The position numbers were made by a program, and so were the translations under genes. A stretch of DNA of 64,000 nt, taken from NCBI RefSeq assembly GCF_028657945.1, contig NZ_CP059693.1, positions 806,001-870,000 of the forward strand, given 5' to 3'. A model generated the notes under the pieces. It saw only the letters and a list, made by a program, of their open reading frames with translations, had not been told where the DNA came from and searched no databases. Position 1 is the stretch's first letter. Each line of letters opens with the position of its first letter. Positions 15,766 through 20,346 of the stretch are shown in pieces. The DNA comes from Thalassomonas haliotis. GTDB taxonomy: Bacteria; Pseudomonadota; Gammaproteobacteria; Enterobacterales; Alteromonadaceae.

Positions 15766-16350
15766 TTAGGCTTTTTTACGCATGCTTACTAAAGCAACCG
15801 TGGCCAATAACATCAGTAAAAAGGTGCTTGGTTCAGGTACTTCGCTGCTGCCAGTTACGCTGATATTTGTGCTGGCATCGACATGGCTGACCGTTTGGAA
15901 AAAGGAGTTGTAGAAACCTTCGTTCAAGTCAGTCACTGTGCTGCTGGTGAACAAGTCGGTGTTACCTAAACCGATGGCGGTAAAGTTTAAGGTGGCTAGC
16001 AGGATATCGCTGCCGCTGACAGCGTCCTGACCGAAAGGAATCAAACCGCCCAGGCCGTTGCCGTCCGTGTTGGTTGGCATGAAAGACGGGCCAACCAACA
16101 GGCTGTCCAGAGATAAAATGCTGCTTGCAAAGTTCAGATCTAAACCCCAGGCAGAGATCACTTCGCTGTTAATATCTGTATCGGTTGAGGCCAGCAGGTT
16201 AACGCTGAAGGCATCGCCAAGATTGAGGTCCGTTGAGTTCAGGTCAAAAGATAACATTAACGTGGCATTGGCTGAAAATGTGCTCAGGCTACAGCTCAGC
16301 ATCAAAAAGATGGCGGCAAAGAATTTATTGGCGGTTTTAAAGTTGTTCAT
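15766..16350 (-). CDS. PEP-CTERM protein with a cohesin-like domain
   Basis: 194 residues. Signal peptide at about 1-29, then one beta-rich domain (about 30-150), and a textbook PEP-CTERM sorting signal at the end: VPEPST, a hydrophobic helix (FLLMLLATVALVSM) and RKKA. Such proteins are cut by an exosortase and delivered to the surface or matrix; no exosortase gene is in the window. The central domain has the cohesin pattern (FDLNSTDLNLGDAFSVNLLA at the start, AWGLDLNFASSILSL, LLATLNFTAIGLG), although this is by eye. It is 69 bp downstream of, and co-oriented with, a nuclease that carries a dockerin. AGAG precedes the ATG. Confidence 0.8.
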   Translation of the reverse strand: MNNFKTANKFFAAIFLMLSCSLSTFSANATLMLSFDLNSTDLNLGDAFSVNLLASTDTDINSEVISAWGLDLNFASSILSLDSLLVGPSFMPTNTDGNGLGGLIPFGQDAVSGSDILLATLNFTAIGLGNTDLFTSSTVTDLNEGFYNSFFQTVSHVDASTNISVTGSSEVPEPSTFLLMLLATVALVSMRKKA

Positions 16351-16419
16351 GATTTTCTCTAATTCATCAATAGTAAAAGTTTACGGCGCCTGAGTTGGCA
16401 TCGGACGCCGTCAAGAAAG

Positions 16420-19400
16420 TTACGGGTTAGCGTAAATTTGTTGCCACAGGCGCATATCAGCAAAGGTGATCTGGCCGTCGGCATCTAAATCTGCTGCCTG
16501 GTCGAAGTTAGCGCTGCCTTGAGTACTGCCTAACATGCCGTAAATAAGCATATAGTCAGTGAAGTCCAGGGTACCGTCGCCGTTAACGTCGCCGCTTTGC
16601 ACTGCTTTTTCCAGCTGGAAGCTGATCACAACCGGATCATGGTCAGCTACCCGGTAAGCGTCTTCTGCGTAGAAGTCTGCCAGCTGCTGCTCAGATTTAT
16701 TTTCCGTGTTGTAATCCAAAACCAAAGGCTCATCGGCATTGATATGCCAGTCTGTGGTATCGACGGTTTTCGCCAGTAAAGAATCATTCGCCAGGGCGTG
16801 ATCCAGGTAACCGGCAGCGCCGCCATAGCTGTAGGAGTATGCGTACGTACCGTTGAAGTGTTTGATCAGGTTGGTGTAACCCTGGTCGGTAAACTTCACA
16901 ATAGGATCTTCCATGGCATAAGCATTTAAGTCACCCATTACCAATACGTCTTTTTGTGTGCTCAGCTCACTGTCGCTGGCAATCCAGTCGATCAGGGCCT
17001 GTGCCTGCAGCTGACGCTTGGCGTTGTAGCAGCTTTGGCCGTCATCCTGGTCTTTATCAAGATCGGTAGCACTGGTACAAAGTTTCGCTTTGAAGTGGTT
17101 GGCGATAATAGTGATTTGCTCGCCGTTTTCATTCAGGCTGAAAGTTTGCGCCAACGGCGGACGGTTAAAGATTTCGTCGTTGTTCACCCGGGCATCGGCG
17201 GCAGGTGAAACTGTGCCAGGCTTGTATAACAAGGCCACGGCAATTGCATCTGTACCAAGCGGACCGCCGGTATTAACAAAGGCGTAGCTGTTGTCACCGG
17301 CAACGGCGTTTAAGCGGCTTACCAGGTCAACCAGGGTGCTGTTGGCATCGACACCGTCGTTTTCAATTTCCATCAAACCGATAATGTCGGCATTCATGGC
17401 AATGATGGCGGCAACGGTTTTAGCAACCTGACGCTCGTACTCGGCTAAGTTGTCGGCACCACGCGAGGTTGGGAAACCGCCGCCCTGGCCGTCACCGTTA
17501 AACAGGTTGAGCACATTCATGCTGGCAACCGTGAGGTTACCCGGCGTTAGCTGTGGCGCATCTGTTCTGGTGTTTACCGCAGCAATATCAGGCGCCTGGC
17601 TTGGGATGATACGGTACTTGCTGTAGCTGTAGTCCATAACGCCGGTTAAGGCGGTTACCTGATCGCCGGCACGCAAGGTATTGCTGGCCGACAAGTTGCC
17701 GCTTGGGTAGATAACGGTTTCCGGGTTAGTGCCGTTTTGTCCGTCATCCAGGGTAACCTGGTTTAAGGCATTACTTGCTGCCAGGGCGATGGCTTCAGCT
17801 GTTCCCGGGCGATAAATGTTGGTCGGGGTAAAGATGCGGCCGTTAGACAGGGTCACTTCACCGTATTTACCCAAGTCATAGTTGTTGGATACGGTTAACG
17901 GGCTGTCTATGGTGATCAGCATACCTTCAAGTGCTTCCGGCGCTTGGGCAGAAGCAAACGGCAGGCTTAAGCTGGTGGCGCTGACGCTGCCGGTGCCACA
18001 GTCAAGCAGGTCTTCGCTGGCGTTTAACTGGGTCCGGCCGTAGCTTTCCGAGACTTCACCAAAGACACGCACTACTGCGCCCACTGCCGGGGTAACCGTA
18101 TTGGCATTGTTGGCAACAAAGAGTCCTTCAGAAGTTTGCGGATCGCCGTCTTCATCGCTGTGCTCTTCCTGGACAAAGAAGCCGTTAAGGTTGGCAAAAA
18201 CTCCAGTGACTACCCCTTCAATAACATGCTTTTGTCCCTGGGTGCTGGTGATATCCTCTATACCCTGGATGCTGCTGATCAGGCTTGCTTCATCGGCGCA
18301 GATACCGATAGTGCTGGCGTCGGTGCCGTCGGAAACATCCGGACCTGTGCCCGGCGTACCGAAGTTGCCGTCACCAAAGCTTTTGCTGGTTTCTTCAAAC
18401 CAGTTGCTGCCAACATTGTTGTCAAGCGAAGCGCTGGTTAAGGTCATCGACTTACCGGTGGGATCCGGCCACTGCGGGCCGCCGTCCCAGGCGATGTTAT
18501 CGGCAATGGTGCCGTCACTCATTTCCAGTACCAATTCATCACTGCCGTTGCTTAAATACATGCCGGAGAATTGATAAATCGCTTCAACACCACCATTGGT
18601 AGAGCTGTCGCTGTTGTTGGCAAATACCGAGTAGGCGCCTGCCGGTAAAATAACGTCTTCAGTGATCTGGTGGCTGTCGTTGTCGTCATCACGTAAGGTC
18701 CAGCCGTTGATATTAACGGCAATCGCCCCTTTGTTTAATACTTCAAACCATTCGCCGGCGCTGTCGGCAACGGCGCTCGGGTTTTGCATCACTTCGGTGA
18801 TCACTAATTCAAAAGTGGCCTCACCTGTGCCCGGGGTACCGAAATTACCCTCGGCATAATTTTGCTCGCTTTCCGTGGTCCAGTTGCCGCCAAGGCTGTT
18901 GTCTGTGGTTGCACTGATCAAGGTCATGGAAGCGCCGTTTGGATCCGGCCACTCGTTGCCGTTATCGTAAGCTATGGTATCAACCACTTCCCCTTCTGGA
19001 GAAACCAGCAGAATTTCATCCGAGCCGTTGGATAAAGCCATGCCGTCGCCATAAGCGTAAACGACATTGATGCCGCCGTTGAGCACAGTGTCTGTGCTTT
19101 TGCCTAAAACGGCATAGCTGCCCATAGGGATGATGACATCTTGGGTAATGGTAAAGCTGTCGCTGCCTTCATCTTTGATGGTCCAGCCGTTAAGGTTGAT
19201 ATCGCCGGTGCCGGTATTTAAGATTTCAAACCATTCGGCGTCACTATCGTTAAGGCCGTTGCCCGGATTTTGCATCACTTCTGTGATGGTCAGCTGGCCA
19301 TTGCTGCTGATATTGCCGGTGCCGCCGTCTGTGCCGCCGCCGGTACCACCGCCGTCTCCACCGCCATCTGTGCCGCCGCCGTCTGTACCGCCGCCGTCTC

Positions 19401-20346
19401 CGCCGGTCGTATCATCAACGCAGGTGTCGGCGCTATAAAGCAGGTCGACCCATTCGCTGTGGTCAATAAAGGGATTACGGTTGCCCTGGTATTCAAAGAT
19501 GCGGTCATTACGGTTTTGCTCGGTGGCATCTACCGGATCTGCTACATGCCATTCAAGCAGGCGGCATAAACGGCCAAGGGCAGGTTCGCTGGTGGAGGTT
19601 AAACGGTCAACAACCGTTAAGTCCGGGGTATGGGTATCCAGGCCTTCGTAGCGGATGTCCATATATAACACCATACGGGCAACGTCACCTTTAACCTCAT
19701 CGCGCGGCTCAAAAGAGTTGCTGTCGATGCGGGTATTGGGGGACTCGCTCAGCGTCTGCATGCTGTTATCGAAGTCGAGGTTGCCGCGGGAGGAGTTGAC
19801 GGAAATGTCTGTGGGTCTTAGGTGATGAATATCGGTATAGGCTTCATTTGAGGAACTTGAGAAACCATGGCTTTTCGCCCAGACATGTTCCCGGTTCCAG
19901 TTATCCGGATTGCTGCTTTGTGAGCCGCTGCCGTTGGATAATTTTGCCAGGGATGTGCCCTTGTATAATAAGATAACGTTATCGGGGTTGGCGGGATCTT
20001 CATCGGTCTCGGTTAATGCTGTCCAAACCTCGGAGTAGGTCAGGATTTTATGGCCGGTGCTGATTATGGTATTAATTGCCGCTTTAATTTCTGCCGCACT
20101 GTCGTTGTTGTTTACGGCATTGATGGCGTCGGCATAATAAACCGCATCGTCAAAGGTGCTGGCATCGGCTATTTTCGCCAAATCGGGACAGTTATAACAA
20201 ACCCCTTCGAGTGAAGCACTTGTTTCGCTGGTGATGCCAGTGCCGGTTGAAAGCTGATTGCCGGTAACCGCATTAAGCACGAGTTCGCTTGCTTGGGTTA
20301 CAGGTACACAAAAAAATGCCAGCAGAGCTGGTATTTTTAATTTCAT
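16420..20346 (-). CDS. ExeM/NucH-family extracellular endonuclease with C-terminal dockerin
   Basis: 1308 residues, secreted (signal peptide about 1-19). Domains in order: endonuclease-I-like domain (about 40-310) with its NREHVWAKSHG metal/His motif; a Gly/Asp-rich linker (GGGTDGGG repeats, about 315-345); two lamin-tail domains, each starting LxITEVMQNP (about 350-465 and 510-620); an OB-fold segment (about 690-800); an endonuclease/exonuclease/phosphatase domain (about 935-1240) with MNVLNLF, LMEIENDG, GDLNAYAMEDP and VADHDPVV catalytic motifs; and a duplicated type I dockerin (about 1255-1308) whose two loops (DVNGDGTLDFTD, DLDADGQITFAD) keep the calcium-binding Asp/Asn. Two different nuclease folds in one chain suggest broad extracellular DNA breakdown. 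GAGGAAAAG precedes the ATG. The cohesin-like PEP-CTERM gene follows. Confidence 0.92.
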   Translation of the reverse strand: MKLKIPALLAFFCVPVTQASELVLNAVTGNQLSTGTGITSETSASLEGVCYNCPDLAKIADASTFDDAVYYADAINAVNNNDSAAEIKAAINTIISTGHKILTYSEVWTALTETDEDPANPDNVILLYKGTSLAKLSNGSGSQSSNPDNWNREHVWAKSHGFSSSSNEAYTDIHHLRPTDISVNSSRGNLDFDNSMQTLSESPNTRIDSNSFEPRDEVKGDVARMVLYMDIRYEGLDTHTPDLTVVDRLTSTSEPALGRLCRLLEWHVADPVDATEQNRNDRIFEYQGNRNPFIDHSEWVDLLYSADTCVDDTTGGDGGGTDGGGTDGGGDGGGTGGGTDGGTGNISSNGQLTITEVMQNPGNGLNDSDAEWFEILNTGTGDINLNGWTIKDEGSDSFTITQDVIIPMGSYAVLGKSTDTVLNGGINVVYAYGDGMALSNGSDEILLVSPEGEVVDTIAYDNGNEWPDPNGASMTLISATTDNSLGGNWTTESEQNYAEGNFGTPGTGEATFELVITEVMQNPSAVADSAGEWFEVLNKGAIAVNINGWTLRDDDNDSHQITEDVILPAGAYSVFANNSDSSTNGGVEAIYQFSGMYLSNGSDELVLEMSDGTIADNIAWDGGPQWPDPTGKSMTLTSASLDNNVGSNWFEETSKSFGDGNFGTPGTGPDVSDGTDASTIGICADEASLISSIQGIEDITSTQGQKHVIEGVVTGVFANLNGFFVQEEHSDEDGDPQTSEGLFVANNANTVTPAVGAVVRVFGEVSESYGRTQLNASEDLLDCGTGSVSATSLSLPFASAQAPEALEGMLITIDSPLTVSNNYDLGKYGEVTLSNGRIFTPTNIYRPGTAEAIALAASNALNQVTLDDGQNGTNPETVIYPSGNLSASNTLRAGDQVTALTGVMDYSYSKYRIIPSQAPDIAAVNTRTDAPQLTPGNLTVASMNVLNLFNGDGQGGGFPTSRGADNLAEYERQVAKTVAAIIAMNADIIGLMEIENDGVDANSTLVDLVSRLNAVAGDNSYAFVNTGGPLGTDAIAVALLYKPGTVSPAADARVNNDEIFNRPPLAQTFSLNENGEQITIIANHFKAKLCTSATDLDKDQDDGQSCYNAKRQLQAQALIDWIASDSELSTQKDVLVMGDLNAYAMEDPIVKFTDQGYTNLIKHFNGTYAYSYSYGGAAGYLDHALANDSLLAKTVDTTDWHINADEPLVLDYNTENKSEQQLADFYAEDAYRVADHDPVVISFQLEKAVQSGDVNGDGTLDFTDYMLIYGMLGSTQGSANFDQAADLDADGQITFADMRLWQQIYANP

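Follow-up and report, generated by a model that had tools for sequence, protein, structure and literature searches.

Introduction

Among the described systems closest to the locus reported here are the cellulosomes, as represented by Clostridium thermocellum (1ohz) and Clostridium cellulolyticum (1g1k). The locus is a pair of adjacent genes, encoding an exported nuclease and a small cohesin-like protein, in a 64,000-nucleotide stretch of the Thalassomonas haliotis genome (contig NZ_CP059693.1, positions 806,001 to 870,000), hereafter called the window. It resembles a cellulosome in that the enzyme has a C-terminal dockerin and a partner with the cohesin fold, for which surface anchoring is proposed. 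Unlike in cellulosomes, however, proteins of the window type have one cohesin each, with one enzyme proposed per cohesin; there is neither a multi-cohesin scaffoldin nor a carbohydrate-binding module (CBM) on the cohesin protein, whose tail is of the exosortase type; and the cargo is mostly non-cellulolytic and the hosts are Gram-negative. The non-cellulosomal modules of Archaeoglobus fulgidus (2xdh) and Clostridium perfringens (2jh2, 2w1n, 2vo8) likewise lie outside cellulose degradation. Our locus differs from these in that the repeated pairing of an enzyme gene with a gene for a private anchor gives rise to a specific hypothesis. Non-cellulosomal cohesin and dockerin modules were reportedly surveyed by Peer et al. 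in 2009. The one open-access paper found to combine dockerins with exosortase, a report on methanotrophic archaea (PMC5244752), states that what these modules do outside the cellulosome is not known.

The nuclease belongs to the same family as ExeM of Shewanella oneidensis which, according to the relevant passages of its description (PMC6085458), has a GlyGly-CTERM-type tail in cis, whereas the window nuclease has a dockerin and the sorting tail is on a second protein. PEP-CTERM with exosortase and GlyGly-CTERM with rhombosortase are described, in the parts of PMC3237569 concerned with them, as tripartite C-terminal signals that are interchangeable between homologs, as they are here, although in our proposal the signal would differ from those systems by acting in trans through a docking module. 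The words dockerin and cohesin have 0 occurrences in the main text of that paper (Haft and Varghese 2011, PMC3237569). The open-access literature, to which our search was confined, yielded no paper combining a dockerin or cohesin with PEP-CTERM, nor are such pairs described, among the matches listed, in the titles or abstract starts of open-access papers on dockerins in connection with Alteromonas, noncellulosomal modules or gammaproteobacteria, or of a broader set of papers. The modules themselves are known, but for the arrangement of one enzyme with one exosortase-type cohesin no description was found in the open-access literature. Based on the sequences of the locus and its relatives, we consider it probable that the two genes form a module in which a dockerin-tagged secreted enzyme is tethered in trans by a private, exosortase-anchored cohesin.

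Results

The nuclease and its cohesin-like neighbor

The features of the locus, all on the minus strand, are as follows.

16420..20346, minus strand: ExeM/NucH-type nuclease, exported, with C-terminal dockerin, 1308 amino acids (Pfam/NCBIfam matches)
19453..20091, minus strand: Endonuclease I domain, residues 86-298 (Pfam PF04231, Endonuclease_1, E 5e-42)
18967..19308, minus strand: lamin tail domain (LTD), residues 347-460, the better of two stretches (PF00932, E 3.6e-35)
16612..18222, minus strand: ExeM/NucH extracellular endonuclease domain, residues 709-1245 (NF033681, 634 bits, cut-off 300)
16453..16593, minus strand: type I dockerin, class A, residues 1252-1298, with two calcium-loop repeats (PF00404, E 3.1e-8)
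16351..16419, minus strand: gap between the nuclease and cohesin-like genes, 69 bp, in frame, with a modest hairpin
15766..16350, minus strand: cohesin-like PEP-CTERM protein, 194 amino acids, putative private anchor of the nuclease
16264..16350, minus strand: putative signal peptide, residues 1-29 (hydrophobic stretch, ANA; by eye)
15853..16263, minus strand: cohesin domain, residues 30-166 (family profile, AlphaFold 2 model, Foldseek, VIA)
15772..15840, minus strand: PEP-CTERM sorting tail, residues 171-193 (PF07589, E 4.7e-5; TIGR02595, E 6.6e-5)

The preliminary description of this DNA had noted a nuclease with a two-loop dockerin, a co-oriented gene 69 bp on, and a PEP-CTERM tail on the small product of that gene, and all three are confirmed by the coordinates and matches above. 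The nuclease is placed in the ExeM/NucH family by its NF033681 match, which is over the cut-off, and it also has a Pfam Exo_endo_phos match (E 2.3e-11). Its tail is a type I dockerin as judged by a PF00404 match over the curated cut-off (E 6.3e-9 in the genome-wide scan) and acidic residues in both loops, and the two-loop pattern was found in 0 of 204 and one of 112 genes in two background sets, the one being the nuclease itself. Class A denotes a dockerin without a Cys tail, a class name coined in this analysis. The tail of the 194-residue protein is over the cut-off of both Pfam and TIGR02595 (E 5.9e-5 in the genome-wide Pfam scan) and follows a signal peptide recognized by eye. PEP-CTERM was the sole Pfam match to this protein up to E 10, with no CBM found, and it has one cohesin domain where a scaffoldin has several. 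A cellulosome was not adopted as an explanation, there being no scaffoldin and no CBM on the cohesin protein.

The hairpin in the intergenic gap is weak (-15.6 kcal/mol, z -1.6 versus shuffles) and could control the expression ratio of the nuclease and cohesin genes. Scans for promoters and terminators at the locus gave scores no better than those of shuffles.

Identification of the small domain as a cohesin

The cohesin-like pattern that had been read in the small domain was upheld by a family profile, but not by the 194-residue protein alone, for which the Pfam cohesin model gave nothing even at E 10; PF00963 likewise had no match in the whole 6.45-Mb genome at E 0.001. The family set was composed of small exported genes that adjoin dockerin genes, gathered from 147 genomes belonging to the window's own taxonomic family. 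PF00963 matched 29 of 80 such relatives at E 0.01 (best 1.7e-7), and when the family profile was compared with the sequences of solved structures, cohesins and cohesin-bearing proteins ranked first (3l8q, E 2e-12), with immunoglobulin-type chains far weaker, from E 0.001-0.007. A profile of 63 rows, none of them from the dockerin class of the window, still recovered the 194-residue protein (E 1.2e-9), whereas the best decoy among 31 other distinct PEP-CTERM-tailed open reading frames (ORFs) reached E 8.9; the genome has 41 PEP-CTERM places, and the decoys came from the surroundings of 30 of these, where 38 ORFs represent 32 distinct sequences.

The fold of the domain was also modeled with AlphaFold 2 from 22 sequences, giving a mean predicted local distance difference test (pLDDT) score of 79 and a predicted template modeling (pTM) score of 0.73, with several low-confidence loops (pLDDT below 70 at 50 of 140 residues). 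The best Foldseek match to this model was the cohesin 1g1k (E 6.7e-6), and of 35 Foldseek rows at E 0.001, all but two were cohesins or cohesin-bearing scaffoldins (33), although the template modeling scores were only moderate, at about 0.5-0.65. With VIA-align 2 the model aligned to 5lxv_C over 119 residues (Z 10.7, root-mean-square deviation 2.6), and the first 27 rows were cohesins or cohesin-bearing scaffoldins, other folds scoring Z 8.9 or lower. The family profile thus assigns the domain to the cohesins by sequence, and the predicted model has a cohesin-type beta-sandwich fold. The possibility that the cohesin label was a pattern reading only was rejected on the profile and structure matches.

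Pairing of dockerin and cohesin genes across genomes

In the window genome, dockerin matches at E 0.01 occur at two places, PEP-CTERM matches at 41 and cohesin-profile matches at two, the last of these lying next to the two dockerins. Across the 147 genomes, 81 of 116 Pfam dockerin places over the cut-off have a cohesin-profile match on the same strand no more than 1.5 kb downstream, in agreement with the expectation that the two genes would be neighbors in relatives. An ORF test gave a similar picture, as an exported, membrane-tailed gene of 150-260 amino acids was present directly downstream in 80 of 114 cases versus directly upstream in three of 83; two of the 80 (L236, an HlyIII protein, and L210) did not resemble cohesins and were left out, and among the three upstream genes that of L196 is the cohesin-profile place L263.

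The reverse search with the profile identified 130 cohesin places in 71 of the 147 genomes. A Pfam dockerin match (E 0.01, within 1.5 kb) precedes 87 of them (six being below the Pfam cut-off), and 28 of the other 43 follow a gene with two pattern-matched calcium loops in its last 90 residues. Ten further links were recognized by eye: an upstream dockerin with one imperfect loop at L269 and L270, a dockerin gene just downstream of the cohesin at L263, an internal dockerin in the upstream gene at L278, and six loci (L252, L255, L261, L268, L272 and L275) in which the downstream gene has the two calcium loops. In these six the loops are N-terminal, after a signal-peptide-like stretch, such that both the position of the dockerin and the gene order are reversed. 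Scripted tests therefore link 115 of the 130 cohesin places to a dockerin, and the hand-read cases bring this number to 125, leaving five without a link (L245, L262, L267, L274 and L279). Since 78 dockerin-adjacent genes had served to train the profile, a fair count is confined to the other 52 places, 47 of which are linked (nine by Pfam, 28 by script and ten by eye) and five not. L270 was kept by eye among the 108 pairs used below, although one loop failed the pattern, and L230 was kept despite its cut tail; L269 was counted as linked by eye, outside the 108. One genome, G096, has five pairs.

Farther afield, the profile matched 27 of 321 genomes in a sample of the class (E 0.001) and 11 of 398 in a sample of the phylum (E 0.0001), eight of the latter being from the window's own family. 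With a looser loop pattern, nine of the 27 class-sample loci scanned have two loops in a neighboring gene and two have no open cohesin frame, while the rest have no clear dockerin neighbor within their 1.5-kb flanks.

The second pair of the window genome, L230 (C1, about 2434.5-2438 kb), has cargo of an M43-peptidase cluster. Its cohesin ORF ends just past the PEP motif, and since an opposite-strand IS4/5-family transposase gene ends 18 bp away, the tail was probably cut by an insertion; at L231, in a sister genome, the cohesin tail is complete. At L136 (genome G133) the tail of the cohesin-like neighbor, judged by eye, is like GlyGly-CTERM rather than PEP-CTERM.

Cargo of the pairs

The nuclease is the most common cargo, in 44 of the 108 pairs, at one per genome, and all 44 align to the window ExeM domain. 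The remaining cargo forms 21 clusters, and one representative was scanned for 20 of these. They include M9 collagenases (13 pairs), M43 peptidases (7), PKD/PPC proteins (6), BNR-repeat proteins (4), CBM6 proteins (4), DUF11 proteins (3), thermolysin-type M4 peptidases (2), purple acid phosphatases (2) and IgGFc-binding proteins (2), as well as single pairs with a glucuronyl-esterase-like protein, a GH98 protein, a lambda-carrageenase and proteins with other domains. One cluster of eight and several small clusters have no clear catalytic domain. The preliminary description had proposed a non-cellulosomal cohesin-dockerin pair whose cohesin is part of a PEP-CTERM protein, which the analysis supports, and had envisaged a "nucleosome-degrading" or biofilm-DNA-harvesting surface complex. 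Nucleases are indeed the leading cargo, but that proposal was too narrow given the collagenases, other proteases, carbohydrate-active enzymes and phosphatase, and nothing was found that points to histones or nucleosomes. A module particular to nuclease action or nucleosome degradation was rejected in view of the many other cargos.

Among the best 80 of 581 named ExeM loci, a dockerin tail was identified by pattern in 28, an adjoining cohesin-profile gene in 22 and both in 20. At L291 and L342 the cohesin neighbor follows a tail that looks dockerin-like by eye. About nine of the same 80 have a hydrophobic GlyGly-CTERM-like end. As judged from this survey of tails, members of the ExeM family may have a sorting tail of their own, a dockerin together with a partner that has the tail, or one of several other endings.

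Co-variation of dockerins and cohesins

The 108 pairs were divided into 19 with class A dockerins, including that of the window, and 89 with class B dockerins, a class likewise coined here for those with a Cys-bearing tail (an earlier, narrower rule gave 84 B and 24 A). Similarity among the cohesins was correlated with that among the dockerins across all pairs (Mantel 0.39), among pairs with non-homologous cargo only (0.26), and among such pairs within class B (0.25), values reached by 0 of 500, 0 of 500 and 0 of 1000 permutations, respectively. For 100 of the 108 pairs, the nearest cohesin with different cargo belongs with a dockerin of the same class (14 of 19 in A and 86 of 89 in B), versus 76 +/- 5.7 after shuffling (0 of 5000). 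Among the nuclease pairs, of which there are 44, the partial correlation of cohesin and dockerin given the catalytic domain was 0.50 (0 of 2000). In addition, nuclease partners with 51-55% catalytic identity to the window nuclease differ according to class, as their cohesins are 39-48% identical to the window cohesin in class A (n=2) and 19-27% identical in class B (n=9). Blind matching of cohesins to dockerins within 33 multi-pair genomes was right for 53 of 78 versus 33 expected, a result reached by six of 20000 random matchings. The dockerin and cohesin sequences co-vary beyond what their cargo accounts for, with shared ancestry not wholly removed by these tests.

Exosortases

All 71 genomes with a cohesin have an exosortase match at E 0.001, compared with 44 of the 76 in which no cohesin was detected (Fisher p 1.3e-11). 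With the Pfam cut-off applied the numbers were 70 of 71, genome G101 falling below it, versus 44 of 76 (p 2.6e-10). The window genome has one match (C1:421474-422211; PF09721, E 5.2e-48), whose best NCBIfam model is exosortase A at 185 bits, which is under the cut-off of that model (208) but exceeds the one for exosortases in general. Nine other genes in its surroundings were scanned, and six of them match families of polysaccharide type or amidotransferases, in no case reaching the cut-off of the family itself.

Discussion

Under the proposed mechanism, the nuclease would be exported with its C-terminal dockerin, and its neighbor, which has a single cohesin followed by a PEP-CTERM tail, would be exported on its own. 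That tail would then be removed by exosortase and the cohesin fixed to the envelope or to extracellular polysaccharide, where it would bind the dockerin with calcium and retain the nuclease close to the cell or within the matrix to cut extracellular DNA. Of these steps, we infer the dockerin-cohesin binding, its dependence on calcium, the processing by exosortase, the final location, and DNA as the cellular substrate. Each enzyme would have its own matched cohesin, as a result of which related bacteria would carry several pairs with different cargo. As relatives have the same kind of pair with a wide variety of secreted enzymes, it looks like a general means of holding such enzymes at the surface. 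Somewhat short of an even chance, and put forward tentatively, is the broader idea that such pairs represent an in-trans sorting code in Gammaproteobacteria, in which pairs would be mutually specific, each secreted enzyme would have a private receptor anchored by exosortase, surface placement would be separate from the secretion route, and enzymes would acquire or alter their surface placement when dockerin and cohesin were swapped together.

Several points weigh against tethering by a private cohesin. No cohesin is directly downstream of 35 of the 116 dockerin places, 14 of which are in genomes without a detected cohesin and 21 in genomes with one elsewhere, and the pairing rule is therefore not strict. 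The 35 include dockerin-tailed nucleases at L124, whose genome has no detected cohesin, and at L171, and a profile-matched neighbor is missing in eight of the 28 dockerin-tailed ExeM proteins among the 80 surveyed. In the nuclease pairs the partial correlation of cohesin and catalytic domain given the dockerin was also 0.50, as co-inheritance predicts. Blind matching with one genome per genus gave 21.7 of 33.8 right versus 15 expected, with a median p of 0.06, and consequently we regard the matching as suggestive. A model of a fused dockerin-cohesin chain from eight sequences had both domains folded, with a pTM of 0.51 and nothing sure on their contact. Signal peptides were assigned by eye, and that PEP-CTERM proteins become attached to polysaccharide enters the proposal as general background. 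Finally, ExeM of Shewanella still stayed with the cytoplasmic membrane fraction when it lacked its putative anchor (PMC6085458), so other modes of membrane association may exist in this family.

Some of the dockerin loci without an adjacent cohesin have features of their own. At L196 and L214 there is a cohesin on the opposite side or at a greater distance (L263 and L278), and L126 is at a contig end. Genomes G054, G089, G117 and G140 have dockerin-tailed proteins (L152, L166, L145 and L159, respectively), each without its own cohesin, which are alike in the type of their downstream neighbor; L152 is a subtilase. In G054 (L134/L152) and G140 (L133/L159) the gene order is nuclease-dockerin, cohesin, second dockerin protein, and the second dockerin protein might share the cohesin of the nuclease. 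Five other dockerin-tailed loci with no downstream cohesin (L171, L174, L185, L187 and L203) have a similar opposite-strand neighbor of 586-588 amino acids, and L171 has Endonuclease I and LTD domains.

The position of the private partner, co-directional and right after the enzyme gene, is also what could be expected if the cohesin-like protein were a chaperone, export partner or inhibitor of the enzyme until its release rather than a lasting anchor. The unusual tail of the L136 partner, and the cut tail in the window genome beside a dockerin gene that is still open, fit such a role too. We nevertheless judge it unlikely: Pfam PEP-CTERM was found in 43 of 80 partners (E 0.01) and the rest passed a test for a hydrophobic tail, every genome with a cohesin has an exosortase match, and the cargo is unrelated across pairs, which makes a cargo-specific chaperone unlikely. 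The 35 dockerin places lacking a directly downstream cohesin, 14 of them in genomes with none detected, could instead mean that the targets of the dockerin are other cohesins or surface molecules, with adjacency to the cohesin gene reflecting regulation or a shared surface function and no direct binding between the neighbors. This too seems improbable, as dockerin and cohesin co-vary beyond cargo and remain adjacent across unrelated cargo. It is very improbable that the small protein has some other immunoglobulin-like surface domain and that the dockerin-like tail is a calcium-binding linker only, since the absence of a Pfam cohesin match to the 194-residue protein alone, its low-pLDDT residues and the far weaker reach of the family profile to immunoglobulin chains are outweighed by the profile and structure evidence for a cohesin and its tight linkage to dockerins.

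A private cohesin tether for each secreted enzyme would give non-cellulosomal cohesins and dockerins a function that can be tested, one that is tied to exosortase sorting. It could also explain the way in which numerous marine bacteria retain costly extracellular enzymes nearby, and the pairs may be a source of many small natural docking pairs for the tethering of enzymes on Gram-negative cells.

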